Shown here piece by piece: positions 774 to 12,219 of a DNA stretch of 12,886 bases. The DNA is from Desulfovibrio sp. (lineage in GTDB: Bacteria; Desulfobacterota; Desulfovibrionia; Desulfovibrionales; Desulfovibrionaceae), in contig JAAUYW010000130.1 of assembly GCA_014804915.1 (NCBI GenBank), positions 1 through 12,886 of the forward strand. Direction: 5' to 3'. Under the pieces are notes generated by a model. The model did not search any database. It had not been told where the DNA came from and saw only the letters and a program-made list of their open reading frames with translations. The first letter of the stretch is position 1. The number at the start of each line of letters is the position of its first letter. Both the position numbers and the translations under genes were made by a program.

Positions 774-799
774 GCCTTGTCATGAATAACTTTTACGCT

Positions 800-804
800 G
801 GAGG
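800..804 (+). promoter_or_regulatory. Shine-Dalgarno site that fixes the start at 809
   Basis: GGAGG lies four bases before the ATG at 809. An in-frame ATG at 782 would place this site inside the coding region and add nine residues in front of a typical signal peptide. The start at 809 is therefore preferred. Confidence 0.8.
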
Positions 805-808
805 ACTT

Positions 809-1297
809 ATGCGTATTTTTGCGGCCTTCGCGCTTGCGCTCGCGCTGGCCCTGCCCGCAACCGCGGCAGAAGTGGGCAAATTGCAGCTTCCGGATGATAT
901 CACGCTTGCCCAGGCACAAAAAGTCATGGCTGGCGCTCTGGCATTTGCTGAAAAACAGGGCGTACCTATGAATATCGCCATTGTAGATGCAGGCGGCAAC
1001 CTGAAAGATTTCTGCCGGATGGATGGCGCATTTCTGGGCAGCATTGACATATCCGCCAAAAAGGCTAAAACAGCGCGCTTTTTCAATATGTCAACAGCCC
1101 AGCTTGGCGCGGTTTCGGGCCCTGGCCAGGAATTGTATGGCATTGAAACCACAAATAACGGCCTCGTTGTTTTCGGGGGCGGAGAATTGTTGCGAAACAG
1201 GGATGGCGTTATCATTGGCGCAATCGGCGTGAGCGGCGGTTCTGTAGCCGAGGATGCCAATGTCGCTCGAGCCGGAGTGGAGGCCCTGAACAAATAG
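809..1297 (+). CDS. GlcG/HbpS-family heme-binding-like secreted protein
   Basis: This 162-residue protein belongs to the GlcG/HbpS/PduO-C-like family (often listed as heme-binding protein family PF03928), whose members bind heme or corrinoids or have unknown roles. Residues 1-20 form a signal peptide (basic start, Ala/Leu core, ATAA|E cleavage region), so it is predicted to be periplasmic. Family marks are VDAGGNLKDFCRMDGA at 59-74 and GAIGVSGGSVAEDANVARAG at 137-156, both in the usual places. The length fits a complete single domain. It stands nine bases before the TunR-like regulator and heads the run leading into tupABC, so co-transcription is likely. A link to tungstate or molybdate handling is only inferred from position; ligand binding cannot be told from the sequence. 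Confidence 0.8.
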   Translation: MRIFAAFALALALALPATAAEVGKLQLPDDITLAQAQKVMAGALAFAEKQGVPMNIAIVDAGGNLKDFCRMDGAFLGSIDISAKKAKTARFFNMSTAQLGAVSGPGQELYGIETTNNGLVVFGGGELLRNRDGVIIGAIGVSGGSVAEDANVARAGVEALNK

Positions 1298-1306
1298 CGG
1301 CCGATC

Positions 1307-2242
1307 ATGGGGGCCGGAAAGGCGGAAACACGGCGCGTTCTGACGCCAGCCGAGCTGGAGTCGCTTACTGACGCCTGGTCGATCTGGATAGGGGAAGCGG
1401 CGACTCCAGGACGCAGGCTGGCGCGCCTCAGGCTGCACCTGTTTTTCCTGCTGGCCCGTTTTGGCGGCTTGCGCCTGGCCGAGATCGCGTCGTTCACGCC
1501 GAGTCAGCTTGATCTGGCAACCGGATACCTGCGTCTGGAAGATCGCGGCCTCTTTATGCCGGCAGGCGCGATGCGGGCGGCCAGGCGCATCCTTGCCCTG
1601 GCCGAGGCCGGAAATCCCGAGTTTTTGCGGCTTGATTCAGGCTTCTTGCGCCGCGCCTTTTATGGGGTTGCCGAGCTGGCAGGGCTGCCGCCAGCCCTTT
1701 GCGCCCCGCGCGCGCTTCGCTATGCCCGCGCCAATGAACTGCTGGCAATGCGGATGCCTCTCGAGCTTGTAGCCAGATCGCTCGGTTTTAAAAATCCGCT
1801 GCAGCTAGCCGCGCTCTTCCCGCCAGCTTGTGAAAACGCGGACAATTCGCCAAACAGTCTGGCTGGACTTGTGCTGCGCCTGGAAGCAGGCCAGCGCAGC
1901 GCGCGGCTCCTGATTGAGCTGGCGCCAGGGACGTATTTGCAGGTCATCAGCCCTCTCGCCGATCTGCTCGCCATTGAGCCCAGGCCAGGTCACGCAGCCA
2001 GACTTCATATTCCGCCAGCCTGTATTTTTCCGGCTGCCAATTTTCCGGACTCTGAAAACCGCCTTGCCTGCGCCCTGGCAGACATCACGGGCGATCAATT
2101 TGAAATTTGCCTGACGCTCGGCCTTGGTTCCAGACTGAAGCTGCAAGCTGTTATGAGTCCTCTTGTAACGGATTTCACAAAGTTCAGGCCAGGAAAAAAT
2201 TTTGCTGTTCATATTCCGCCGCATTTGATACGATTGCGCTGA
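1307..2242 (+). CDS. tunR: TunR-like tungstate/molybdate-responsive regulator (recombinase-derived DNA-binding domain + two Mop domains)
   Basis: This 311-residue protein has two parts. Residues about 10-172 resemble the catalytic domain of XerC/XerD tyrosine recombinases: RFGGLRLAEI (51-60) carries the first catalytic arginine, R56, and the stretch ending in ALR at 136-138 resembles box II. It looks catalytically dead. The box II histidine is replaced by R135, LGFKNP at 159-164 lacks the usual histidine after LG, and no tyrosine stands where the nucleophile should be (L170, F171). Residues about 184-243 and 250-311 are two Mop/TOBE domains, as in the oxyanion-sensing part of ModE. This arrangement matches the TunR family of sulfate reducers, which controls modABC or TSUP transporter genes and responds to tungstate. 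It stands 35 bases before tupA, its probable target and co-transcribed partner. No clear ribosome binding site precedes the ATG, so its translation may be coupled to the gene before it. Confidence 0.85.
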   Translation: MGAGKAETRRVLTPAELESLTDAWSIWIGEAATPGRRLARLRLHLFFLLARFGGLRLAEIASFTPSQLDLATGYLRLEDRGLFMPAGAMRAARRILALAEAGNPEFLRLDSGFLRRAFYGVAELAGLPPALCAPRALRYARANELLAMRMPLELVARSLGFKNPLQLAALFPPACENADNSPNSLAGLVLRLEAGQRSARLLIELAPGTYLQVISPLADLLAIEPRPGHAARLHIPPACIFPAANFPDSENRLACALADITGDQFEICLTLGLGSRLKLQAVMSPLVTDFTKFRPGKNFAVHIPPHLIRLR

Positions 2243-2277
2243 AAATTTATTCTTCAATACCAGCGCAGGAGCGATCT

Positions 2278-3099
2278 ATGACTGGCAAAAAAATCCTGTA
2301 CGGGCTTTTGGGCGCGCTTTTGTTTGCAGCGCCTGTATCCGCGGCAGACACGTTGATGATGGCCACGACAACCAGCACCCAGGACACAGGGCTTCTGGAA
2401 TACCTTAAACCCTATTTCAGCAAGGACACAGGCATTGATCTCAAATGGGTGTCTGTTGGCACCGGCAAGGCGCTTGAGCTCGCCAAAAACTGCGATGCGG
2501 ACGTGCTGCTGGTGCATGCGCCCGCAGCCGAGAAGAAATTTGTGGAAGAGGGGCATGGCATAGACCGGCGCCAGATAATGTATAACGATTTTGTAGTCGT
2601 CGGGCCAAGGGATGATCCCGCGGGCGCAGGCGGCAAGGATGTCGCCCAGGCGTTCAGGGCCATTATTGGCGGCAAGGCGCCATTTGTGAGCCGGGGCGAC
2701 GAATCTGGCACACACAAGTCTGAAAAGGCAATCTGGAAGCAGGCCGGCATTGAGCCTGAAAAGAATTCGGATGTCTATGTTTCCGCAGGCTCGGGCATGA
2801 TGGCGACATTGCGTATGGCTGCGGAAAAGAAAGGCTACGCGCTAACCGACCGGGGCACCTGGATCAAGTTCTCCAATCAGGAAGGCGACAGGAATCCGCT
2901 CGCGATTGTTGTGGAAGGCGACAAGCCCCTGCTCAATCAGTACAGCGTGATCACAGTCAATCCGGCACAGTGCAAAAAAGTCAATCCCGAGCTTGCCAAA
3001 AAGTTCGAGGACTGGTGGGTGAGTCCTCAAACCCAGAAGCTGATTGAGGATTTCCGCCTGGAAGGCAAGCAGCTCTTTTTCCCCAATGCAGGCAAATAG
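2278..3099 (+). CDS. tupA: Tungstate ABC transporter, periplasmic binding protein TupA
   Basis: This 273-residue protein captures tungstate in the periplasm and delivers it to TupBC. Residues 1-22 are a signal peptide ending PVSA. The mature start carries the TTTSTQDTGLL signature at 30-40, and SRGDESGTH lies at 138-146. Both are typical of TupA rather than ModA, and these segments form the oxyanion pocket in the family. The length is normal. The start at 2278 has AGGAG six bases upstream (2267-2271). A longer reading from 2107 would run inside the regulator gene and bury the signal peptide. It lies between the TunR-like gene and tupB. TupA proteins generally prefer tungstate strongly over molybdate, but selectivity here is inferred from the family. 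Confidence 0.93.
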   Translation: MTGKKILYGLLGALLFAAPVSAADTLMMATTTSTQDTGLLEYLKPYFSKDTGIDLKWVSVGTGKALELAKNCDADVLLVHAPAAEKKFVEEGHGIDRRQIMYNDFVVVGPRDDPAGAGGKDVAQAFRAIIGGKAPFVSRGDESGTHKSEKAIWKQAGIEPEKNSDVYVSAGSGMMATLRMAAEKKGYALTDRGTWIKFSNQEGDRNPLAIVVEGDKPLLNQYSVITVNPAQCKKVNPELAKKFEDWWVSPQTQKLIEDFRLEGKQLFFPNAGK

Positions 3100-3113
3100 C
3101 AGGGCAATACGGC

Positions 3114-3153
3114 CCCGGGCAGCCTGTTGAAGCTTTCCGGGCGCGCCCTTTTT
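3114..3153 (+). terminator. GC-rich hairpin or palindrome with T run between tupA and tupB (possible attenuator)
   Basis: The arms CCCGG (3114-3118) and CCGGG (3137-3141) can pair, and the self-complementary GGGCGCGCCC (3139-3148) runs straight into five T (3149-3153). The structure sits four bases before the tupB ATG, which has no Shine-Dalgarno site. It could reduce expression of the permease and ATPase relative to the binding protein, or stop part of the transcripts. The stem is short, so this is tentative. Confidence 0.3.
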
Positions 3154-3157
3154 ATTC

Positions 3158-3853
3158 ATGGATTACTTTTCGGACGGTTTTGCAAAGGCGCTGAATCTGC
3201 TGCTGGATCTCCATCCGGCTACCATTTCCGCCATTGAGGTTACGCTGGTTTCAACTGCCTGGTCGGTTGGCATGGCTATGCTGCTGGGCCTGCCGGCTGG
3301 TTTTTGCCTTGGTTATTACGATTTTGCCAGCAGGCGCCTGCTTCGACTGCTTTCGGACACCCTGCTTGCCTTTCCGACAGTGCTTATTGGCCTGATTGTC
3401 TATGTGTTGATTACCTATCGCGGACCGCTTGGCCAGTTTGGGCTGCTGTTTACAATGCCAGGCATGATCATTGGCCAGACCATGCTGGCCCTGCCAATTG
3501 TGATCTCATGGACAGCGCAGGCGGTTGAGCGCATGGATTCCCGCTGCCGCATGACCTTGCTGACCCTCGGGGCAAACCCGGCGCAGCTCGCCCTGCTCAC
3601 CATCTGGGAGGCGCGCTACGAGATCTGCATGGTCTGCGCGACTGCTTTTGGTCGGGTTGTAACCGAGGTGGGAATCGCCATGATGCTGGGCGGCAACATT
3701 CTCAATGCCACGCGCACAATGACAACCGCCATCTCTCTGGAAACCAGCAAGGGCGAATTTGCCCAGGGCATTGCCCTTGGCCTGGTGCTTCTCGCCATTG
3801 CCTTTATCCTCAATGCGCTGCTTGTATTCCTGCGGCGCAGGGGGCGCCAATGA
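3158..3853 (+). CDS. tupB: Tungstate ABC transporter, membrane permease TupB
   Basis: This 231-residue integral membrane protein is the channel subunit of the tungstate importer. Several hydrophobic segments are visible: about residues 24-50, 60-95, 100-125, 165-180 and 205-225. The cytoplasmic loop with LTLGANPAQLALLTIWEARY followed by the TAFGRVVTEVGIAMMLGGNI segment is the TupB-type version of the EAA loop that docks the ATPase. The ATG at 3158 is the first possible start after an in-frame stop at 3128-3130. It lacks a clear ribosome binding site and directly follows a GC palindrome with a T run. The stop overlaps the tupC start (ATGA, 3850-3853), indicating coupled translation with the ATPase. 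Confidence 0.92.
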   Translation: MDYFSDGFAKALNLLLDLHPATISAIEVTLVSTAWSVGMAMLLGLPAGFCLGYYDFASRRLLRLLSDTLLAFPTVLIGLIVYVLITYRGPLGQFGLLFTMPGMIIGQTMLALPIVISWTAQAVERMDSRCRMTLLTLGANPAQLALLTIWEARYEICMVCATAFGRVVTEVGIAMMLGGNILNATRTMTTAISLETSKGEFAQGIALGLVLLAIAFILNALLVFLRRRGRQ

Positions 3854-4500
3854 GTCTGGTTTACGAGGCGCAAAACCTGCGCCAGGCATACGGAGGCCTG
3901 CCTGCCTTGCAGATTTCCGCATTCAGGCTGGAAAAAGGCGATGCCCTGATTCTTCAGGGGCCTAACGGGAGCGGCAAATCGACTTTTTTACGCCTGCTGG
4001 CTTTTCTAGAAAAACCGTCAGGAGGGAGCCTGCGCTATTTTGGAGGCAGGGAGCCGCGCAGGGAGTGCACGCTGCTTTTGCAGGAACCCTGGCTTTTGCA
4101 TGCCACAGTGTTTCAGAATGTTGTCCTGGGCCTGAAGCTGAGAGGCATCAGGCAGGATTTGCGTGCAAGCTATGAAGCCGCAATGCGGGCTAGCGGCTTT
4201 GACAGGCCGGAGGCTTATGCCCTGCGCAGGCCAGCCGCCCTTTCCGGCGGGGAAAAGCAGAGAGTCGCGCTCGCCGCCAGGCTGGCCCTGAAGCCAGTCG
4301 TCCTGCTCCTGGACGAGCCAACTGCCTATGTGGACAGCAGGAGCGCGGCCTGCATACTTGACGCATTGCGCGCCGCGCATCAGGCCGGGCTCACCATTGT
4401 CTGCGCTTCGCATGATCCGGGCATCGCCCAGGCGCTCGGCGCCGCCACAATGGCGATTGAAAGGCCGGATTCAGACACGCGATTTTCCGGACAGGCCTGA
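3850..4500 (+). CDS. tupC: Tungstate ABC transporter, ATP-binding protein TupC
   Basis: This 216-residue ABC ATPase powers tungstate import on the inner face of the membrane. It has a Walker A motif GPNGSGKST at residues 37-45, the ABC signature LSGGEKQR at 131-138, Walker B VVLLLDEPT at 150-158, and the switch histidine H188 in ASHD. It is short for an ABC ATPase and has no C-terminal Mop/TOBE domain, unlike ModC, which agrees with the Tup type. The start overlaps the tupB stop by four bases. The stop codon lies inside the loop region of a hairpin that probably ends this transcript. Confidence 0.92.
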   Translation: MSLVYEAQNLRQAYGGLPALQISAFRLEKGDALILQGPNGSGKSTFLRLLAFLEKPSGGSLRYFGGREPRRECTLLLQEPWLLHATVFQNVVLGLKLRGIRQDLRASYEAAMRASGFDRPEAYALRRPAALSGGEKQRVALAARLALKPVVLLLDEPTAYVDSRSAACILDALRAAHQAGLTIVCASHDPGIAQALGAATMAIERPDSDTRFSGQA

Positions 4501-4514
4501 AAAGCGTGTCTTTT
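4473..4514 (+). terminator. Probable intrinsic terminator overlapping the tupC stop
   Basis: AGACACGC (4473-4480) pairs with GCGTGTCT (4504-4511). After a two-base bulge, TTTTC (4483-4487) pairs with GAAAA (4499-4503), giving a 13-pair stem around an 11-base loop. A short T run (4511-4514) follows. The tupC stop (4498-4500) lies within the structure. It would separate the tup run from the oxidoreductase gene, which has its own candidate promoter just after. The short T run makes full efficiency uncertain. Confidence 0.5.
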
Positions 4515-4525
4515 CATACGTATTG

Positions 4526-4555
4526 TTGACCCTTGTCAGGAAATCGGGCAATCAT
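4526..4555 (+). promoter_or_regulatory. Candidate promoter of the aldehyde oxidoreductase run
   Basis: TTGACC (4526-4531) matches the -35 consensus at five positions. After an 18-base spacer, AATCAT (4550-4555) matches the -10 box at four. Transcription would start near 4562, some 32 bases before the ATG at 4594. The box lies directly after the probable terminator of the tup run, so it would drive aor, the MoaD-like gene and the E1 gene. Confidence 0.5.
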
Positions 4556-4556
4556 G

Positions 4557-4565
4557 TTCCGGAAA
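4557..4565. promoter_or_regulatory. Palindromic TTCCGGAAA at the predicted aor transcript start
   Basis: TTCCGGAA is self-complementary and lies right after the -10 box, where a bound repressor would block transcription. The same nine bases occur at 711-719 between the divergent promoters at the left. Sharing between the two is suggestive only. Confidence 0.25.
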
Positions 4566-4593
4566 CCATTCAACACTGGATTGAGAGGTCTGG

Positions 4594-6336
4594 ATGTACC
4601 AGTTTTTGCGCGTGAACATGGACACAAGGGAATGCCGGTTTGAGCCGGTGCCAAGGGAATACGAGGGGCTGGGCGGACGCGGCCTGACGTCGGCCATAGT
4701 CGCCAATGAGGTTGATGCCGGCTGCAATCCGATTGGGCCGCATAACAAGCTTGTCTTTGCGCCCGGATTGCTGGGAGCCACCAACAGCCCCAACACCAAT
4801 CGCCTTTCAGTAGGCTGCAAAAGTCCGCTCACTGGCGGCATCAAGGAAGCCAATGCCGGCGGTCAGCCAGGCGGACACCTGGCACGGCTTGGCATCCTCG
4901 CCATAATTGTCGAAAAACTGCCAAAAGATGGCGAATGGTGGGATCTGGAAGTAAAAAAAGATTCCGCGCGCCTGGTTAAATCCTCTGTCAGTGGCCTGAA
5001 CAACTTTGACGCAGTGGACAAGCTGCGCGGCTCCTATGGGGACAAATGCAGCTATATCACGATCGGACGCGCAGGCGAGTTCAAATTGACGGCAGCCAGC
5101 ATCGCCTGCACAGACCGTGAGCTGAGGCCAACGCGCCATGCTGGCCGCGGCGGAGTTGGCGCTGTCATGGGCTCCAAGGGCCTGAAGGCGATCATTGTCG
5201 ATCCCGCAGGCGGAGACACGGCGCCAATTCAGGATGTAAAGGCATTTCGCGAGGCCTCAAAACGGTTCGCAAAGGCATTGGCCGAGAATCCGGTTACGAG
5301 CCAGGCGCTGCCAAATTACGGCACAGACGTGCTTGTAAATATCATCAATGAGGCTGGCGGCCTGCCTACCCATAACTTTGAGTATGGCCGTTTTCCGGAG
5401 CATGAGAAGGTTTCCGGCGAGCGCATGAACGAGCTCACGACAAAACGCGGCGGCGAGGGCGTTGTCGCGCATGGCTGCATGAGCGGCTGCGTGATTCGCT
5501 GTAGCGGGCTGTATCCTGGCAAAAATGGCAAGCTGATTAGCAAATGGCCGGAATATGAGACAGTGTGGTGTTTTGGCCCCCATTCTGAAATCGATGATCT
5601 CGATTTCATCGCCAAATGCGACTATCTCTGCGATGATTATGGCGTTGATACGATTGATGTCGGCGTAGCGATCGGCACAGCCATGGCTGGGGGCGGCATT
5701 CCGTGGGGAGACAAGGACGCTGTGCTGGAGGCAATGCACGGCATCAGCAAGGGCACTCCCCTTGGCCGTATTATCGGCTGCGGAGCCGCCACTACCGGGC
5801 GCGTGTTTGGCGTGCGCAGGGTGGCCGCCGTGAAAGGGCAGAGCCTGCCGGCGTATGACCCCCGCGCAGTCAAGGGCCAGGGCGTAACCTACGCCACTAC
5901 GCCTATGGGCGCTGATCACACTGCAGGTTACGCTGTTACAGCCAATATCCTTCATTGCGGCGGTTATGTCGATCCGCTCAAAAAAGAAGGCCAGATCGAG
6001 CTGTCCCGCAATCTCCAGATTGCAACCGCATCCATTGACAGCGTGGGCCTGTGCCTGTTCACCGCCTTCGCGCTGCTGGATGTGCCGGATGCCCTGCCCG
6101 CAGTAGTTGACATGCTGAATGCGAAGTTTGGCTGGCAGCTCACCGGGGATGATGTAAGCGGCCTTGGCAAGCGCATTCTGACAATGGAGATTGATTTCAA
6201 CAGGCGGGCCGGAATTCCCGCATCGGCAGACCGGTTGCCGGAATTCTTCGAGGAAGAGCCGTTGCCGCCGCATGACACGGTATTTGACTTCACTACGGAA
6301 GAGCTGCAAAAAACCCTGGATTTTGCTGATAAATGA
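4594..6336 (+). CDS. aor: Aldehyde:ferredoxin oxidoreductase family tungsten (or molybdenum) enzyme
   Basis: This 580-residue cytoplasmic enzyme of the AOR family carries a bis-pterin metal site and one [4Fe-4S] cluster. Typical members oxidise aldehydes to acids with ferredoxin. Visible marks are GLGGRGLTS near residues 25-33, RHAGRGGVGAVMGSKGLKAI near 181-200, DDYGVDTID at 347-355, GADHT at 439-443 and DSVGLC at 482-487. Cluster ligands are C295, C299, C303 and C487. The first three are spaced Cx3Cx3C, where the Pyrococcus furiosus enzyme has Cx2Cx3C. The start has AGAGG (4584-4588) five bases upstream. Next to tupABC and cofactor genes a tungsten enzyme is likely. No ferredoxin or iron-sulfur partner gene adjoins it. 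The substrate is not readable; relatives of this length also include YdhV/hydroxycarboxylate-oxidoreductase-like proteins. Confidence 0.92.
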   Translation: MYQFLRVNMDTRECRFEPVPREYEGLGGRGLTSAIVANEVDAGCNPIGPHNKLVFAPGLLGATNSPNTNRLSVGCKSPLTGGIKEANAGGQPGGHLARLGILAIIVEKLPKDGEWWDLEVKKDSARLVKSSVSGLNNFDAVDKLRGSYGDKCSYITIGRAGEFKLTAASIACTDRELRPTRHAGRGGVGAVMGSKGLKAIIVDPAGGDTAPIQDVKAFREASKRFAKALAENPVTSQALPNYGTDVLVNIINEAGGLPTHNFEYGRFPEHEKVSGERMNELTTKRGGEGVVAHGCMSGCVIRCSGLYPGKNGKLISKWPEYETVWCFGPHSEIDDLDFIAKCDYLCDDYGVDTIDVGVAIGTAMAGGGIPWGDKDAVLEAMHGISKGTPLGRIIGCGAATTGRVFGVRRVAAVKGQSLPAYDPRAVKGQGVTYATTPMGADHTAGYAVTANILHCGGYVDPLKKEGQIELSRNLQIATASIDSVGLCLFTAFALLDVPDALPAVVDMLNAKFGWQLTGDDVSGLGKRILTMEIDFNRRAGIPASADRLPEFFEEEPLPPHDTVFDFTTEELQKTLDFADK

Positions 6337-6376: not shown

Positions 6377-6622
6377 ATGGCATTGCACATTAAATTGAGC
6401 ACTACCCTGCGGTCATATCTGCCTGATTATGATTCCGAAAAGGGGCTTGAACTCGAGCTTGATCCTGCCACGCGGGTTACTGCCGCCGATATTGCGGCCA
6501 GGCTGGGGCTGCCGCCTGATGAAATAAAGTTCATCATGCTCAATGGCCGCTGCATGGATATGGAAACGCCATTGGGCCCTGATGACAGGCTGGCCTTTTT
6601 TCCGGCAGTTGGCGGTGGCTAG
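6377..6622 (+). CDS. moaD: MoaD/ThiS-like ubiquitin-fold sulfur carrier
   Basis: This 81-residue protein has the beta-grasp pattern of MoaD/ThiS: a first strand HIKLSTTLR near residues 4-12, and a C-terminal strand DDRLAFFPAVGGG ending in the glycine tail that is adenylated and turned into a thiocarboxylate. MoaD donates sulfur for the pterin dithiolene. AOR-linked relatives often accompany tungsten enzymes, and that is the likely role here. A longer in-frame reading from 6191 would overlap aor and has no support; the ATG at 6377 gives the usual N-terminus. No Shine-Dalgarno site is visible, and a stable hairpin stands just upstream. The end overlaps the E1 gene by eight bases. No moaE is present nearby, so this carrier either works with a MoaE elsewhere or delivers sulfur to another acceptor. 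Confidence 0.85.
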   Translation: MALHIKLSTTLRSYLPDYDSEKGLELELDPATRVTAADIAARLGLPPDEIKFIMLNGRCMDMETPLGPDDRLAFFPAVGGG

Positions 6623-7418
6623 CCTCGCTTCAGGCCCGACCGGCTCCCGGCCGCTATTCTGTTCCGGAAAATCGCTTGCAGGCTATGCCCGTCGTCATGG
6701 TTTGACCCTGAAGGAAGCCATGGCCAGGGTTCTGACGCATGGCATCTGGCCGGAGCGCTTCAGGCGCAATTACGGACTGCTTGCGCCCTTGACACAGATT
6801 CGCCTCCTGGAGCTGCCAATTTTCGTGGCCGGGTGCGGAGGCCTGGGCGGCGAGATGGCGGCAAAGCTTGTCCGTCTGGGCGCTGGCCGGCTGCGCCTGT
6901 GCGATCAGGACAGATTCGAGGAATCAAACCTGAATCGCCAGCGGTTTTGCGTAGAGGCAGCGCTGGGCCAGGAAAAGGCTCTGGTTACAGCCAGCGCCCT
7001 GAAGGCAATGGCTTCATGGGGGGATTACGAGCCCCGCGTCATCAGGCTTGATCCTGAAAATATCGATGGCCTGATTGCGGATTGCGAAATCGTGATTGAT
7101 TGCCTTGATTCAGTCGAAGGCAAGAAAATGCTGGAACAGGCCGCGGTAAGGGTGGGCAAGGTTTTTCTGCATGGCGCTGTGCTGCATGAGGAATGCCTTG
7201 CCTTTCTTTCCCAGCCTGCGGACGGAGCGCTTTCAAGAATGTATGCCAGGGAGTCGCGGGCCTGCGGCGCGGGATCCGTGCTTGGCCATGTTGTGTCAGG
7301 CGCGGCGGCTTTGATGTGCGCGCTTTTTGTAAACTGGCTTTCAGGCAGGGCTGCGTCATCGCGCCTATTGCACTGCGATTTTTCAGCGCCGGGGCTTGCC
7401 CTTTACGAACTGCCCTGA
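6615..7418 (+). CDS. HesA/MoeB/ThiF family E1-like adenylyltransferase
   Basis: This E1-like enzyme probably adenylates the C-terminal glycine of the MoaD-like protein encoded just before it. It is 267 residues if translation begins at the GTG at 6615, which overlaps the carrier's stop codon. The N-terminal 65 residues carry helices ahead of the nucleotide fold. VAGCGGLGGE (71-80) is the glycine-rich ATP loop, CDQDRFEESNLNRQRF (96-111) is the acidic and NxxRQ region, and IDCLDS (161-166) gives the likely metal-binding aspartate. The paired CxxC zinc motifs of MoeB are not seen, so it is a minimal HesA-type member without a rhodanese domain. An upstream in-frame ATG at 6543 would lie deep inside the carrier gene and is unlikely. 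The 3' end overlaps the opposite-strand moeA fusion by 16 bp. Confidence 0.87.
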   Translation: MASLASGPTGSRPLFCSGKSLAGYARRHGLTLKEAMARVLTHGIWPERFRRNYGLLAPLTQIRLLELPIFVAGCGGLGGEMAAKLVRLGAGRLRLCDQDRFEESNLNRQRFCVEAALGQEKALVTASALKAMASWGDYEPRVIRLDPENIDGLIADCEIVIDCLDSVEGKKMLEQAAVRVGKVFLHGAVLHEECLAFLSQPADGALSRMYARESRACGAGSVLGHVVSGAAALMCALFVNWLSGRAASSRLLHCDFSAPGLALYELP

Positions 7419-9352
7419 AATGTTCCCACAATCTCGCCTGTCCTTGCCGTGTCATAGCCGCCCAGGGTATCGACAGCATCCCTGAATTCCCGGGAGCGGA
7501 TTACCTCCAGCAGCGCAATGACGCGCTCATCCTGCAGATACGCTAGCGGAATCACAAGGTCGTATTGCTCAAAGCCAACAGGCTCAAAACCCAGACCCAG
7601 CGCATTGGCAGCCGCGCGTACGCCAAGGCCGGCGTCAGCGCGACCGGAAAGCACTGCCTGGGCCACGTTCATGTGCGTGTACTCCTCGTCCTCGTACCCT
7701 GCGATCGCGCCAGGCGCAATGCCGCGCTTTTTGAGTTCCCAGTCAAGCAACACGCGCGTGCCGCTGCCTTTCTGGCGATTGATGAACCGGATTCCACTGC
7801 CGCCCAGATTTTCAAAGCTCCTGATATCAAGCGGATTGCCCCTGGCTACAATCAGCCCCTGTTCGCGATCCACCAGCCTGATCAGCGCTACAGGCGTGGC
7901 GCCGAGATGTTTCCGGATGGCGCCCTCGTTGTAGATTCCGGTTTCCGGATCAAGCAGGTGGCTGCCTGCCAGGTGCGCCTGGCCCCTGGCAAGCGCGAGC
8001 AGGCCCCCCAGCGAGCCAACATGGGCGGAAGTCAGGCGAAAGCGAGGGTGGGAGCGCCGCAGCAGGCTATCCAGAAGATCAAGCGTGTTGTCATGGCTGC
8101 CTATGGCAAGCAGCGCGCCTTCTATCTCATTGCGCGGCCGCAGCAATGCGGCCAGCCCTGGTTTGCCTGCATCCAGTCCTTCGTTTGCGGACGGGATGCT
8201 GAGAATGGCATCAGCGCGGGAAAGGCTGGTTATTGTGCCGGCGCCTCTTGGCAGTGGCACAGCCCAGGCCTTGCCATCCACAATGCCAAGCTTGACGCGC
8301 AATTTTTCTTCCATGCCAGGTTTTGAAGGCAGGGGCTTGACCGGAAAGGCAGCCATCATCTCCGGTCTGGGCGGTTGTCTTTTTTGCCAGTGGGCAAGAA
8401 GGGGCAAGACAAATTCCGAAATCGCCAGCCATGCTGATACAGGATAGCCAGGTATGCCGGCAACCGGTATTTTGCGCTCGCCAAGACTGGCAATGCCAAG
8501 AACCGTTGGCTTGCCAGGCATCATGCTCACGCCATGCGCAATGAGCTCGCCCAGGCCCGCAATCACATGCGCTGAAAAATCATGGCTGCCCGCTGAAGTG
8601 CCGGCATTGATCAGGATGAGGTCAGCATCCCGCGCTGTCCAGACCATTCTGCGAATCTCCTCCGGATCATCCGGCGCAATGGGTAGTGTGATTGGCTCCG
8701 CGCCCGCAGCCTTGAGCATCGTGGAAAAGACAAGGGAATTGAATTCAGGCAGTTGTCTGCCTGCTGCCAGATCAGTTTCGTTTGCGTCCCCGAGTTTCAC
8801 CAGGTCGCTGCCTGTCGGCAAAATTGCGACTTTTGCCTTTTTGAATACTTGCGGCCGCATGATGCCGCCTGCGGCAAGGGCGCCAATTTCCTGGGCGCCA
8901 ATCAGCGCGCCAGGCGGGAGTATGACTTCAGTTTCAACCAGATCCTCGCCTGTCTTGCGCACATGTTGCCAGGGAAAAACCGGTTTTTCCAGGATAATGG
9001 CATCGGCTTCCTGGTTAATTTCCTCGATCATCACAACAGCGTTCGCGGCTTTGGGGAGGGGTTGCCCCGTATTTACCGGCCAGGCCTGTTTTCCGATTGC
9101 AAGCGCGAGCGGACGCCTTGTGGACGCGCCATAGGTGTCAGGCGCGAATACTGCATAGCCATCCATTGCAGCGCCATGAAAAGCCGGAGAGGAACGTTTT
9201 GCAAGTATGGCTGCGCTGGCGACCCGGCCGGCGCTTTGCTCCAGATCGACTTCTTCGCTGCCAGGCGCGGCGCAAACCTCATCTATGCGGTCGAGCCAGA
9301 TTTTCAGGGCCTGGGCCGGCGGAGTAAGCTCAAGATAGATATTTCTTTCCAT
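7403..9352 (-). CDS. moeA: MoeA-type molybdopterin molybdenum/tungsten transferase fused to a PBP-like domain
   Basis: This 649-residue two-part protein begins with a MoeA domain (about 1-405) that inserts the metal oxyanion into adenylylated molybdopterin. It shows AMDGYAV at 62-68, NAGTSAGSHD at 249-258, HGVSMMPGKPT at 273-283 and GIPGYPVSA at 299-307. Residues about 410-640 form a PBP-like (PF12727-type) domain, with NRQKGSGTRVLLD at 525-537. The domain lacks a signal peptide and so is cytoplasmic. Such fusions are known in archaea and anaerobic bacteria, and the extra domain may bind an oxyanion or another small ligand; its function is not established. The start at 9352 gives the standard N-terminus. 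An in-frame ATG at 9511 lies within the preceding moeA and is unlikely. It follows the other moeA after 19 bases, so the two form one operon. Confidence 0.93.
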   Translation of the reverse strand: MERNIYLELTPPAQALKIWLDRIDEVCAAPGSEEVDLEQSAGRVASAAILAKRSSPAFHGAAMDGYAVFAPDTYGASTRRPLALAIGKQAWPVNTGQPLPKAANAVVMIEEINQEADAIILEKPVFPWQHVRKTGEDLVETEVILPPGALIGAQEIGALAAGGIMRPQVFKKAKVAILPTGSDLVKLGDANETDLAAGRQLPEFNSLVFSTMLKAAGAEPITLPIAPDDPEEIRRMVWTARDADLILINAGTSAGSHDFSAHVIAGLGELIAHGVSMMPGKPTVLGIASLGERKIPVAGIPGYPVSAWLAISEFVLPLLAHWQKRQPPRPEMMAAFPVKPLPSKPGMEEKLRVKLGIVDGKAWAVPLPRGAGTITSLSRADAILSIPSANEGLDAGKPGLAALLRPRNEIEGALLAIGSHDNTLDLLDSLLRRSHPRFRLTSAHVGSLGGLLALARGQAHLAGSHLLDPETGIYNEGAIRKHLGATPVALIRLVDREQGLIVARGNPLDIRSFENLGGSGIRFINRQKGSGTRVLLDWELKKRGIAPGAIAGYEDEEYTHMNVAQAVLSGRADAGLGVRAAANALGLGFEPVGFEQYDLVIPLAYLQDERVIALLEVIRSREFRDAVDTLGGYDTARTGEIVGTFQGSS

Positions 9353-9371
9353 GATTATTATTCCGGACAAA

Positions 9372-10601
9372 TTAGCGGAGTGGATAGAATTTGACCTGCT
9401 GGCCCTTGACAAGGCCTTCCGAATTTTCAGGACAAATGACAAGGCCATCTGCGGCGAGCATGCTTTCAAGAACCGCAGAAGGGCTGCGGACTGGCTGCGC
9501 GACAAAACCATCGCTATCTTCTTCCAGCCGGCAGCGGATGTAGTCGCGCCGTCCCTGGGCTGAAGCGATTGAGCGGCTCAGTCTTGCGGCAATCCAGGGT
9601 TTTGGCTCAGGCTGATCCTGGCCTTGCAAGCGGGCCAGAAGCGGCCCCAGGAAAACATGGGCGCAAAGCAGCGCGCTTGTAACATGGCCAGGCAGGCCAA
9701 ACAGGTATTTGCCGCCTGCAATCGCAAGAATAAAAGGTTTGCCAGGCCGCATTGCGACGCCATGTGCAAGCAGTTTCGCATCAGGCAGGGAAAGGAAGGC
9801 CTCGGCAGTGTGATCCCTCATGCCAGCCGAGGAGCCTCCAGAAACGGCGATTATGTCCGCTTTTGAATGTGCCTCTTTCAGGCGTGCCTCGAGCTGCGGC
9901 CTTTCGTCAGGCACTATGCCCATCTGCAGGGGAAGACCGCCGTGGAGCCGGCAATACGCGGCCAGGCTCCAGCTGTTGACGTCGCGAAGCCTGCAAGCGG
10001 ACGGTATCGTGTCAATGGGGACGATCTCATCGCCAGTGGCGATTATCGCCACGCGGGGTTGTTGATAGACCTCAATTTTCTGAATGCCAAAAGCTGCGAA
10101 AATGCCCGCTTCCTGGGCGCGAATGCGCCTGCCCGCGGGAATGAGCAACTGGCCAGGCTTCGCATCCTCATCGCTTTCAACGATATTTTCGCCTGGGGCC
10201 ACAGAGCGGATGATCTCGATCTGGCTTGTGCCAGCATCGCGGCTGTCTTCAATCATGACTACAGAATCCGCTCCTGCTGGCAGGGCCGCGCCGGTAACAA
10301 TGGAGGCAGCCTCTCCGGCTCCCAGATTTAGTTGGGGAGGGACGCCGATCTGGCAGTCTCCGCTTACAGCCAGTAGCGCTGGCGCGGATTCGCTGGCGCC
10401 AAAGACATCGGCAGCCCGGACTGCATAGCCATCCATCCTGGAGCGCACAAAGCCGGGGAGAGCGGCAGGGGCAATGAAAGGACTGGCGAGACGTCTGCCC
10501 GGGGAATCGGCCAGGGCCACTACATCCCTGCCCAGCGGCGTGGCTCCATGAATGAGGGCAAGCACCTCGTCAACTGATTTCAGATTCAAGAATGGCTTCA
10601 T
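9372..10601 (-). CDS. moeA: MoeA, molybdopterin molybdenumtransferase
   Basis: This 409-residue protein is a full-length MoeA, ligating molybdate or tungstate to adenylylated molybdopterin in the cytoplasm. Marks in order are RMDGYAV (55-61), with the aspartate matching a metal-insertion residue of the E. coli enzyme, TGAALPAGADSVVMIE (103-118), ATGDEIV (188-194), SGGSSAGMRDHT (254-265), HGVAMRPGKPF (280-290) and GLPGHV (302-307), then a C-terminal beta domain. It lies upstream of the second, fused MoeA. Paired MoeA paralogues are found in several tungsten-using anaerobes, and separate use for Mo and W has been suggested there. The sequence alone does not show which metal this copy handles. 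AAGAG some six bases ahead of the ATG is a weak ribosome binding site. Confidence 0.94.
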   Translation of the reverse strand: MKPFLNLKSVDEVLALIHGATPLGRDVVALADSPGRRLASPFIAPAALPGFVRSRMDGYAVRAADVFGASESAPALLAVSGDCQIGVPPQLNLGAGEAASIVTGAALPAGADSVVMIEDSRDAGTSQIEIIRSVAPGENIVESDEDAKPGQLLIPAGRRIRAQEAGIFAAFGIQKIEVYQQPRVAIIATGDEIVPIDTIPSACRLRDVNSWSLAAYCRLHGGLPLQMGIVPDERPQLEARLKEAHSKADIIAVSGGSSAGMRDHTAEAFLSLPDAKLLAHGVAMRPGKPFILAIAGGKYLFGLPGHVTSALLCAHVFLGPLLARLQGQDQPEPKPWIAARLSRSIASAQGRRDYIRCRLEEDSDGFVAQPVRSPSAVLESMLAADGLVICPENSEGLVKGQQVKFYPLR

Positions 10602-11517: not shown

Positions 11518-12219
11518 ATGCGCAAGCCCGAGCGAATTTGCGGAATTCTTGGCGGCATGGGGCCAGAAGCAACTGTCTATTTGATGAATCGCATTATTGC
11601 GAACACAGACGCAGGCGAAGATGGTCACCATGTCCGCTGCCTGGTTGACCAGAATCCCCAGGTGCCTTCACGCATCAAGGCGATTCTGGAGGGCGCGGAA
11701 GATCCTGGACCAGACCTGGCAAAAATGGCGTCAGGCCTTGAGGCCGCAGGCTCGGATTTTCTTTGCATGCCCTGCAATACCGCGCATTACTGGTTATCTG
11801 AAATCACAAGCGGCATAAAGACGCCATTTCTGGATATGCCTGATCTGGCATGCATGGATGCGGCCAGGGCCGCGCCAGGCGCGAAATGTGGCATCATGGC
11901 CACTCCAGCTACGCGGCTCAAGGGCATTTATGATGCCCGCTGCGCGCGTCATGGTCTTGAAGCGATTTATCCGGCTGAAGATGACCAGGCCGCCCTTCTG
12001 GAAATAATCAACGAAGTCAAGGCAGGCAATCATGGGGGAGGCCGCCGCCTTGCCGCAATTGCCGCCAGACTCGCTCAGGCAGGGGCTTCCTCCGTTATTC
12101 TGGCCTGCACTGAATTGAGCGTGCTGGGCGTCGCAGAGGAAAACGGGCTGAAAGTGATCGACGCACTGGAATCTCTCGCCCGTGAAATTGTCAGCAGGGC
12201 AGGCGCAGATTCAAAATGA
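11518..12219 (+). CDS. Aspartate/glutamate racemase family protein
   Basis: This 233-residue cytoplasmic enzyme of the cofactor-independent aspartate/glutamate racemase family probably interconverts L- and D-forms of an acidic amino acid by a two-cysteine mechanism. The N-terminal GGMGPEAT (12-19) is typical of the aspartate racemase branch. The two catalytic cysteines are C86 in MPCNTAHY and C197 in ACTELS, both present and well placed. The length is normal. GGCGGA seven bases before the ATG serves as a ribosome binding site. The following gene is a symporter for dicarboxylates or acidic amino acids, which suggests uptake and racemisation of the same substrate. Whether aspartate, glutamate or another amino acid is used cannot be read from the sequence. 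Confidence 0.9.
   Translation: MRKPERICGILGGMGPEATVYLMNRIIANTDAGEDGHHVRCLVDQNPQVPSRIKAILEGAEDPGPDLAKMASGLEAAGSDFLCMPCNTAHYWLSEITSGIKTPFLDMPDLACMDAARAAPGAKCGIMATPATRLKGIYDARCARHGLEAIYPAEDDQAALLEIINEVKAGNHGGGRRLAAIAARLAQAGASSVILACTELSVLGVAEENGLKVIDALESLAREIVSRAGADSK

Follow-up and report, generated by a model that had tools for sequence, protein, structure and literature searches.

The gene at positions 1307..2242 (+) of the window, i.e., the whole 12,886-nucleotide stretch of Desulfovibrio DNA analyzed here, codes for a TunR-like regulator of 311 residues (gene tunRL, product TunRL). The product probably regulates transcription as a protein that has the TunR architecture but belongs to a paralogous clade serving a tungsten operon. 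The TunR family is reportedly found in sulfate reducers, where it is said to act in molybdate/tungstate transport with modABC or TSUP genes as targets, and it reportedly couples an Xer-like DNA-binding domain lacking the full catalytic set to a ModE-like di-Mop domain. It has been described as an instance in which site-specific recombinases gave rise to transcription factors, and in D. vulgaris, TunR without tungstate is said to be an activator of modABC. TunRL resembles TunR in both of these domains, and a TunR-type box is found in several relatives; it differs in forming a separate clade, in being linked to tupABC-aor, in having lost the ligands of its first Mop domain, and in that no box was found in the window. 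While the architecture is already known, what seems to be new is a paralogous clade linked to tup, with a changed sensor: no paper on a tup-linked TunR paralogue came up in the literature searched, though Kazakov et al. 2013 (J Bacteriol 195:4466) and Rajeev et al. 2019 may mention one.

The N-terminal domain of TunRL (residues 7–172; 1325..1822, +) has the fold of the XerA catalytic domain and matches Xer proteins over these residues, and the C-terminal di-Mop domain (residues 178–311; 1838..2239, +) lies within the ModE matches that cover residues 166–311, the ModE-like fold proposed for it in the initial annotation being present. Pfam matches are to Phage_integrase, TOBE and, at 17.6 bits against a cut-off of 33.6, HTH_18, with HTH_17 and PBP_like absent from among them. 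When the catalytic positions are read by alignment with L052, an intact Xer protein of the window's own genome, the arginines of box I (R56) and box II (R138) are retained, while the lysine is replaced by R80, the box II histidine by R135, the box III histidine by F161 and the tyrosine nucleophile by L170. The same pattern holds across 45 TunRL proteins: all have both arginines and an arginine for the box II histidine, and the box III histidine is replaced by Gln (36), Phe (8) or Ile (1). Thus, the earlier description of a dead tyrosine recombinase is borne out, and the conserved tyrosine nucleophile that had been named as evidence against it is found by alignment in none of the 45. Relative to XerA, XerC and XerD, with which TunRL has the catalytic-domain fold and both box arginines in common, it lacks the nucleophile, the box histidines and the N-terminal core-binding domain, for which the window protein has no room ahead of its Xer-type domain. 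The product is likely to be a DNA-binding regulator built on a disabled recombinase. An anti-phage defence role was rejected, PADLOC giving no match at E 1. The ModE of E. coli, which has a winged-helix N-terminal DNA-binding domain, differs in this fold and in keeping SARN and KAPW in its first Mop domain.

In the window, a GlcG/HbpS-like gene (782..1297, +) lies 9 bp upstream of tunRL, and tupA, coding for the tungstate-binding protein, starts 35 bp downstream (2278..3099, +; NF041772, E 4e-96, 321.5 bits, the equivalog cut-off of 400 not being reached). It is followed by the genes for the TupB permease (3158..3853, +; NF041773, E 4.7e-85, 285 bits, cut-off 320) and the TupC ATPase (3850..4500, +; best match NF041774, 119.8 bits, cut-off 400), confirming at 782..4500 the proposed placement of the regulator directly before tupABC with a GlcG-like gene in front. 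Next come aor, for a tungsten-type aldehyde:ferredoxin oxidoreductase (4594..6336, +; PF01314 and PF02730 above cut-off), and, 3' of it, a MoaD-like and a ThiF/MoeB-like gene (6392..7418, +), the former matching weakly (19.6 bits, cut-off 49.5) and the latter at 94 bits (cut-off 159). Convergent with these are genes for a MoeA-PBP fusion and a MoeA (7403..10601, −), which also occur near tup or aor in several relatives; at 7403–9511, a MoeA is fused to a PBP-like domain, adjoining the second MoeA, and PF12727 is common to this fusion and the TaoR-type protein L073 considered below. Further out, the window codes for the cysteate racemase CuyB (11518–12219; 257 bits against a cut-off of 190) and, at 58–630, has a divergent gene with an RsbRD N-terminal domain. 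Sigma-70-like promoter matches (9/12) at 2225–2253 before tupA and at 4526–4555 before aor suggest that each may have its own promoter. No Rfam match was found in the window at the gathering threshold.

TunRL is not the canonical TunR of its own genome (70% complete, in 163 contigs, the window being contig C130), since a second protein of this architecture is coded on contig C93, divergent from modA (TIGR01256, 209 bits, above cut-off) and with a mobA-like gene after it (TIGR02665, 83 bits against a cut-off of 152); this copy retains TSARN and has a TOBE score of 67.7 bits. In a tree of 72 proteins, TunRL and the diverged L014 are separated from the modA-linked TunR proteins by a branch with SH-aLRT 100, in what is a quick, midpoint-rooted tree without bootstrap that carries long-branch warnings for the window's sub-group, L014 and L002, among others; the window protein falls in a long-branched sub-group with eight database proteins. 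Redundancy among the 45 TunRL and 27 other proteins compared here was removed on the basis of the last 150 residues; as some species remain twice, under a named and an unnamed record, the set does not amount to 72 independent cases. By score, L014 falls among the 27, yet it groups with TunRL in the tree and is the only one of them without TSARN. A profile (A3) made from 16 TunRL sequences, taken from the window, the database and genus g1 and meant to exclude genus g54, gave 22 matches of at least 378 bits in 199 genomes of the host family, the next scoring 219. These 22 are confined to g1 (10 of 16 genomes) and g54 (12 of the 15 listed), the high g1 scores being partly by construction as the profile includes g1 proteins. 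Desulfovibrio piger ATCC 29098 is among the named members of the clade, as are Mailhella MAGs. Thus, of the original assignment to the TunR family, the architecture stands, and canonical membership gives way to a separate paralogue clade with a canonical copy beside modA.

The members of this clade are to a large extent tied to tungstate uptake genes. A search of these 199 genomes for tupA (E 1e-40 or better) showed tunRL next before it, on the same strand, in 21 of the 22 TunRL genomes, with gaps of approximately 35 to 750 bp as measured by match ends; in the 22nd (G130), tunRL adjoins moaD/aor, and tupA is on another contig. Across g1 and g54, 25 genomes have tupA, of which 22 also have TunRL (the exceptions being G029, G025 and G238); none of the six genomes lacking tupA has it. 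These counts come from related genomes and hence are not independent. Beyond this sample, the linkage is looser: among the 12 genomes of loci L003–L014, which carry TunRL or its diverged kin L014, tupA comes next after tunRL in six (G008, G017, G006, G021, G013 and G011, the first two also being among the 199). In G016 (L036), tunRL is flanked by tupC and aor; G032 has its diverged L014 and tupA in divergent orientation; and G030 (tunRL beside aor), G020 and G022 carry tupA on a different contig. No tupA match was found in G033 (86% complete), the sole genome without one among ten searched separately. The glcG-tunRL pair recurs there (L037, 1205–2150) but looks broken, with a frame break in glcG and a tunRL that stops after approximately 148 residues, i.e., after its first domain; the window DNA matches this genome only within glcG, and the broken tunRL may be an assembly fault. 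Among 19 named loci, tupA is next downstream of tunRL in 13, and tunRL stands beside moaD/aor in two (L096 and L105); in the other four (L106–L109), neither a tup gene nor moaD/aor was found beside it, three of these ending approximately 1 kb downstream of tunRL and L108 having other genes across 6 kb on both sides. The tup association expected of this regulator thus holds in many genomes of g1 and g54.

The type-2 site of the tungsten storage protein Tub, as described in PMC11980592, is formed by the side chains of Ser4 and Lys60, the backbones of Arg6 and Ala61 and the neighbor's Ser40, and is said there to closely resemble the Mop and ModE sites. The corresponding positions in TunRL were transferred from this Tub structure, the Mop 1 alignment being anchored by the Asn that closes the SARN motif, and the Ser40 and Lys60 positions being less firm, as identity between the two groups is approximately 21% in the C-terminal half. 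In the window protein, these positions are occupied by N180, P182, D219 and P236 in Mop 1 and by D248, E250, V287 and P304 in Mop 2, with Asn183 and Asn251 retained and the ligand motifs SARN, IT..S and KAPW absent. Across the 45 TunRL proteins, Mop 1 has Ser4 in four, Arg6 in four, and Ser40 and Lys60 in none, as against 26 of 27 for each in the canonical set (the exception being L014); motif searches agree, with TSARN in 0/45 versus 26/27 and [VIL]KA.W in 0/45 versus 24/27. Mop 2 of TunRL retains Ser4 in 33 (the window not among them), Arg6 in one, and Ser40 and Lys60 in none, and in the other set of 27, the counts are 18, 9, 13 and 15, indicating that Mop 2 is partly degenerate there too. 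The Asn of SARN persists in Mop 1 of all proteins (45/45 and 27/27) and in Mop 2 of 36 of the 45.

With the usual oxyanion ligands missing in both the window protein and its clade, the sensing of tungstate through the Mop domains, which had been implied by the initial annotation, cannot be assumed. It might still be argued that TunRL is an ordinary TunR, whose Mop domains bind tungstate or molybdate via other residues or the backbone and lower tup expression when tungstate is plentiful. The intact di-Mop fold, the linkage to tup, the retained Asn, the frequent Ser4 of Mop 2 and the partial degeneration of the canonical Mop 2 itself, where Lys60 is present in just 15 of 27, are all compatible with this. 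Nevertheless, the loss of a Mop 1 ligand set that is nearly invariant in canonical TunR and the absence of Lys60 from Mop 2 in all 45 TunRL proteins speak against it, as does the acidic character that Mop 1 has acquired (Asp/Glu at Ser4 in 28 of the 45 and Asp at Lys60 in 24), which is unsuited to an anion; we therefore regard an ordinary TunR as unlikely. The two halves also differ in conservation in TunRL, the mean identity being 61.9% in the N-terminal versus 38.2% in the C-terminal half in the window's branch (36 pairs) and 67.7% versus 47.9% in the remaining TunRL proteins (630 pairs), whereas in the other set they are equally conserved at 42.6% and 43.1% (325 pairs, L014 excluded). In seven close tunRL genes (21 pairs, some with dS >1 and thus near saturation), dN/dS is 0.02–0.07 in the first half and 0.03–0.10 in the second, which points to purifying selection on both halves in this one close clade.

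Candidate binding sites were sought starting from the canonical copies, where TCACG-N14-CGTGA or a close form is present in five of nine tunR-modA gaps (L047, L049, L050, L051 and L132). Over 130 partly overlapping loci (816 kb), the exact TCACG/CGTGA pair occurs 21 times at a spacing of 14, once at 12 and never at 13, 15 or 16, against nine occurrences at spacing 14 over five shuffles (approximately 1.8 each); tunRL-tupA gaps of TunRL loci account for 12 of these 21 rows, some species appearing more than once. A matrix trained on ten sites picked by eye, and judged against shuffles that preserve single-base make-up only, found strong sites in all five tunRL-tupA gaps tested in the D. desulfuricans-like group (16.5–22.4, equaled by 0/300 shuffles). 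Upstream of tunRL, high scores are seen in L120 (19.5) and L125 (18.3), lower ones in L116 (10.9) and L127 (12.4; p 0.003 each), and weaker ones in the remaining eight of 12 regions (p 0.03–0.71). Control regions before tupA without an adjacent TunRL were low in L146 and L150 but reached 11.8 in L162 (p 0.007) and 10.4 in L164 (p 0.003), such that a score of about 11 carries little weight. Scanning 39 loci (480 kb) gave 17 positions at 14 or above; four are training sites, and of the other 13, ten (eight distinct) fall in tunRL/tupA promoter regions and three elsewhere. Before aor, the best scores in 13 loci range from −7.6 to 13.9.

In the window itself, the matrix scan of five regions found no TunR box. 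The DNA targets that had been proposed, 640–808 and 4500–4593, contain no box-like site, the best scores being −6.8 for 631–781 (shuffle p 0.79; covering 640–781 of the former) and −2.0 for 4501–4593 (p 0.20); 4440–4593 scores 5.8 (p 0.03), which, as one of five regions tested, is not counted as evidence. The canonical tunR-modA gap of the same genome also has no box (best score −0.25), suggesting that both copies may have drifted in specificity in the window lineage. Some further elements were observed: an inverted repeat GACACGC...GCGTGTC at window 4474–4510, within the region scoring p 0.03, at the end of tupC before aor, with a weak likeness to the TunR half-site; TCACG-N27-CGTGA, seen in two Mailhella loci, and a variant with N24 in L116, both of which may be chance; a box-like site (17.3) 194 bp before tupA in L036; and a palindrome TTATGTT...AACATA before tupA in L150 and L162, which have no adjacent tunRL, perhaps the site of another regulator. 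TGAAAT/ATTTCA elements recur upstream of tunRL in L121–L131 (g54, Mailhella-like), in several of which moeA is divergent, and are also seen in L163 close to tupA, which tunRL no longer adjoins there. In L098 7000–7790, no promoter match was found by which the box could be placed as an activator or a repressor site.

The boxes could be read by canonical TunR. TunRL might also be viewed as a sensorless partner of canonical TunR, forming a heteromer with it or competing for its box. This overlaps with the explanation that we prefer, and it draws on the resemblance of the tup boxes to the canonical box and on at least one further profile match, a putative canonical TunR, in 21 of the 22 TunRL genomes; however, G225, a 96% complete genome, has TunRL as its single match, and an obligatory reading of this kind appears rather improbable to us.

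A different regulator might also be responsible, with tunRL a bystander: TaoR, which we take to be the tupR product DVU3193 (both papers drawn on below cite Rajeev 2019), is reported to regulate tup and aor in D. vulgaris. It is like TunRL in its tie to tupABC; unlike TunRL, the TaoR-type protein L073 consists of HTH_17 and PBP-like domains, with no recombinase or Mop domain. The tie of DVU3193, named tupR, to tungstate uptake in D. vulgaris is stated in PMC10102598, and speaks for this; PMC11980592 gives TaoR HTH and PBP-like domains, and small HTH_17 proteins were dropped as TaoR candidates given that description. Searches with L073 listed full-length TaoR-type matches in eight of 61 relatives, none of them among the 37 of the genus, and in 14 of the 199 family genomes, along with six split or partial ones, none of them in g1 or g54, the family listing reaching down to approximately 150 bits, well below full-length scores. 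With no TaoR-type match listed in these two genera, TaoR was rejected as the local regulator and is very unlikely to hold that role, with the caveat that the window's own genome is only 70% complete; TunRL may replace TaoR at tup in g1 and g54. In many other family genomes with tupA, neither TunRL nor a TaoR-type protein is among the matches listed. Finally, that TunRL is an active or recently active site-specific recombinase lying by chance beside tup can be dismissed as having practically no likelihood, for despite the Xer catalytic fold and both arginines, the two histidines and the tyrosine are absent in 45/45 proteins, there is no core-binding domain, and the position beside tupA is repeated.

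The preferred reading of TunRL as a paralogous regulator serving the tungsten operon can be spelled out as follows. The Xer-type domain would bind DNA near the tup promoter without cutting it, the target being the TunR box in relatives and an altered site, not located, in the window lineage. With its Mop ligands gone, TunRL would stay in the ligand-free form of TunR, or else answer to another signal; the former would be the form in which canonical TunR is reported to activate modABC. The regulation of tup would then no longer follow the free oxyanion through the canonical pocket, and control of tupABC-aor would be separate from that of modABC, the latter falling to the canonical TunR coded beside modA. 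More speculatively, and as a possibility to which we give modest credence at best, a recombinase might have become a tungstate sensor, and a copy of the latter acquired an acidic pocket answering to a cation, a tungsten-cofactor intermediate or a partner protein, to drive the tungsten operon, with its target changed in the window lineage.

The TunRL clade would add a second step to the passage from recombinase to regulator, namely duplication, a move into a tungsten operon and loss of the ligand residues, with the DNA-binding half remaining the more conserved of the two. It also serves as a warning that architecture alone is insufficient to call such proteins tungstate-responsive. Moreover, TunR at mod and TunRL at tup would constitute a testable pair in one cell, through which to study how bacteria separate the uptake of molybdenum from that of tungsten.
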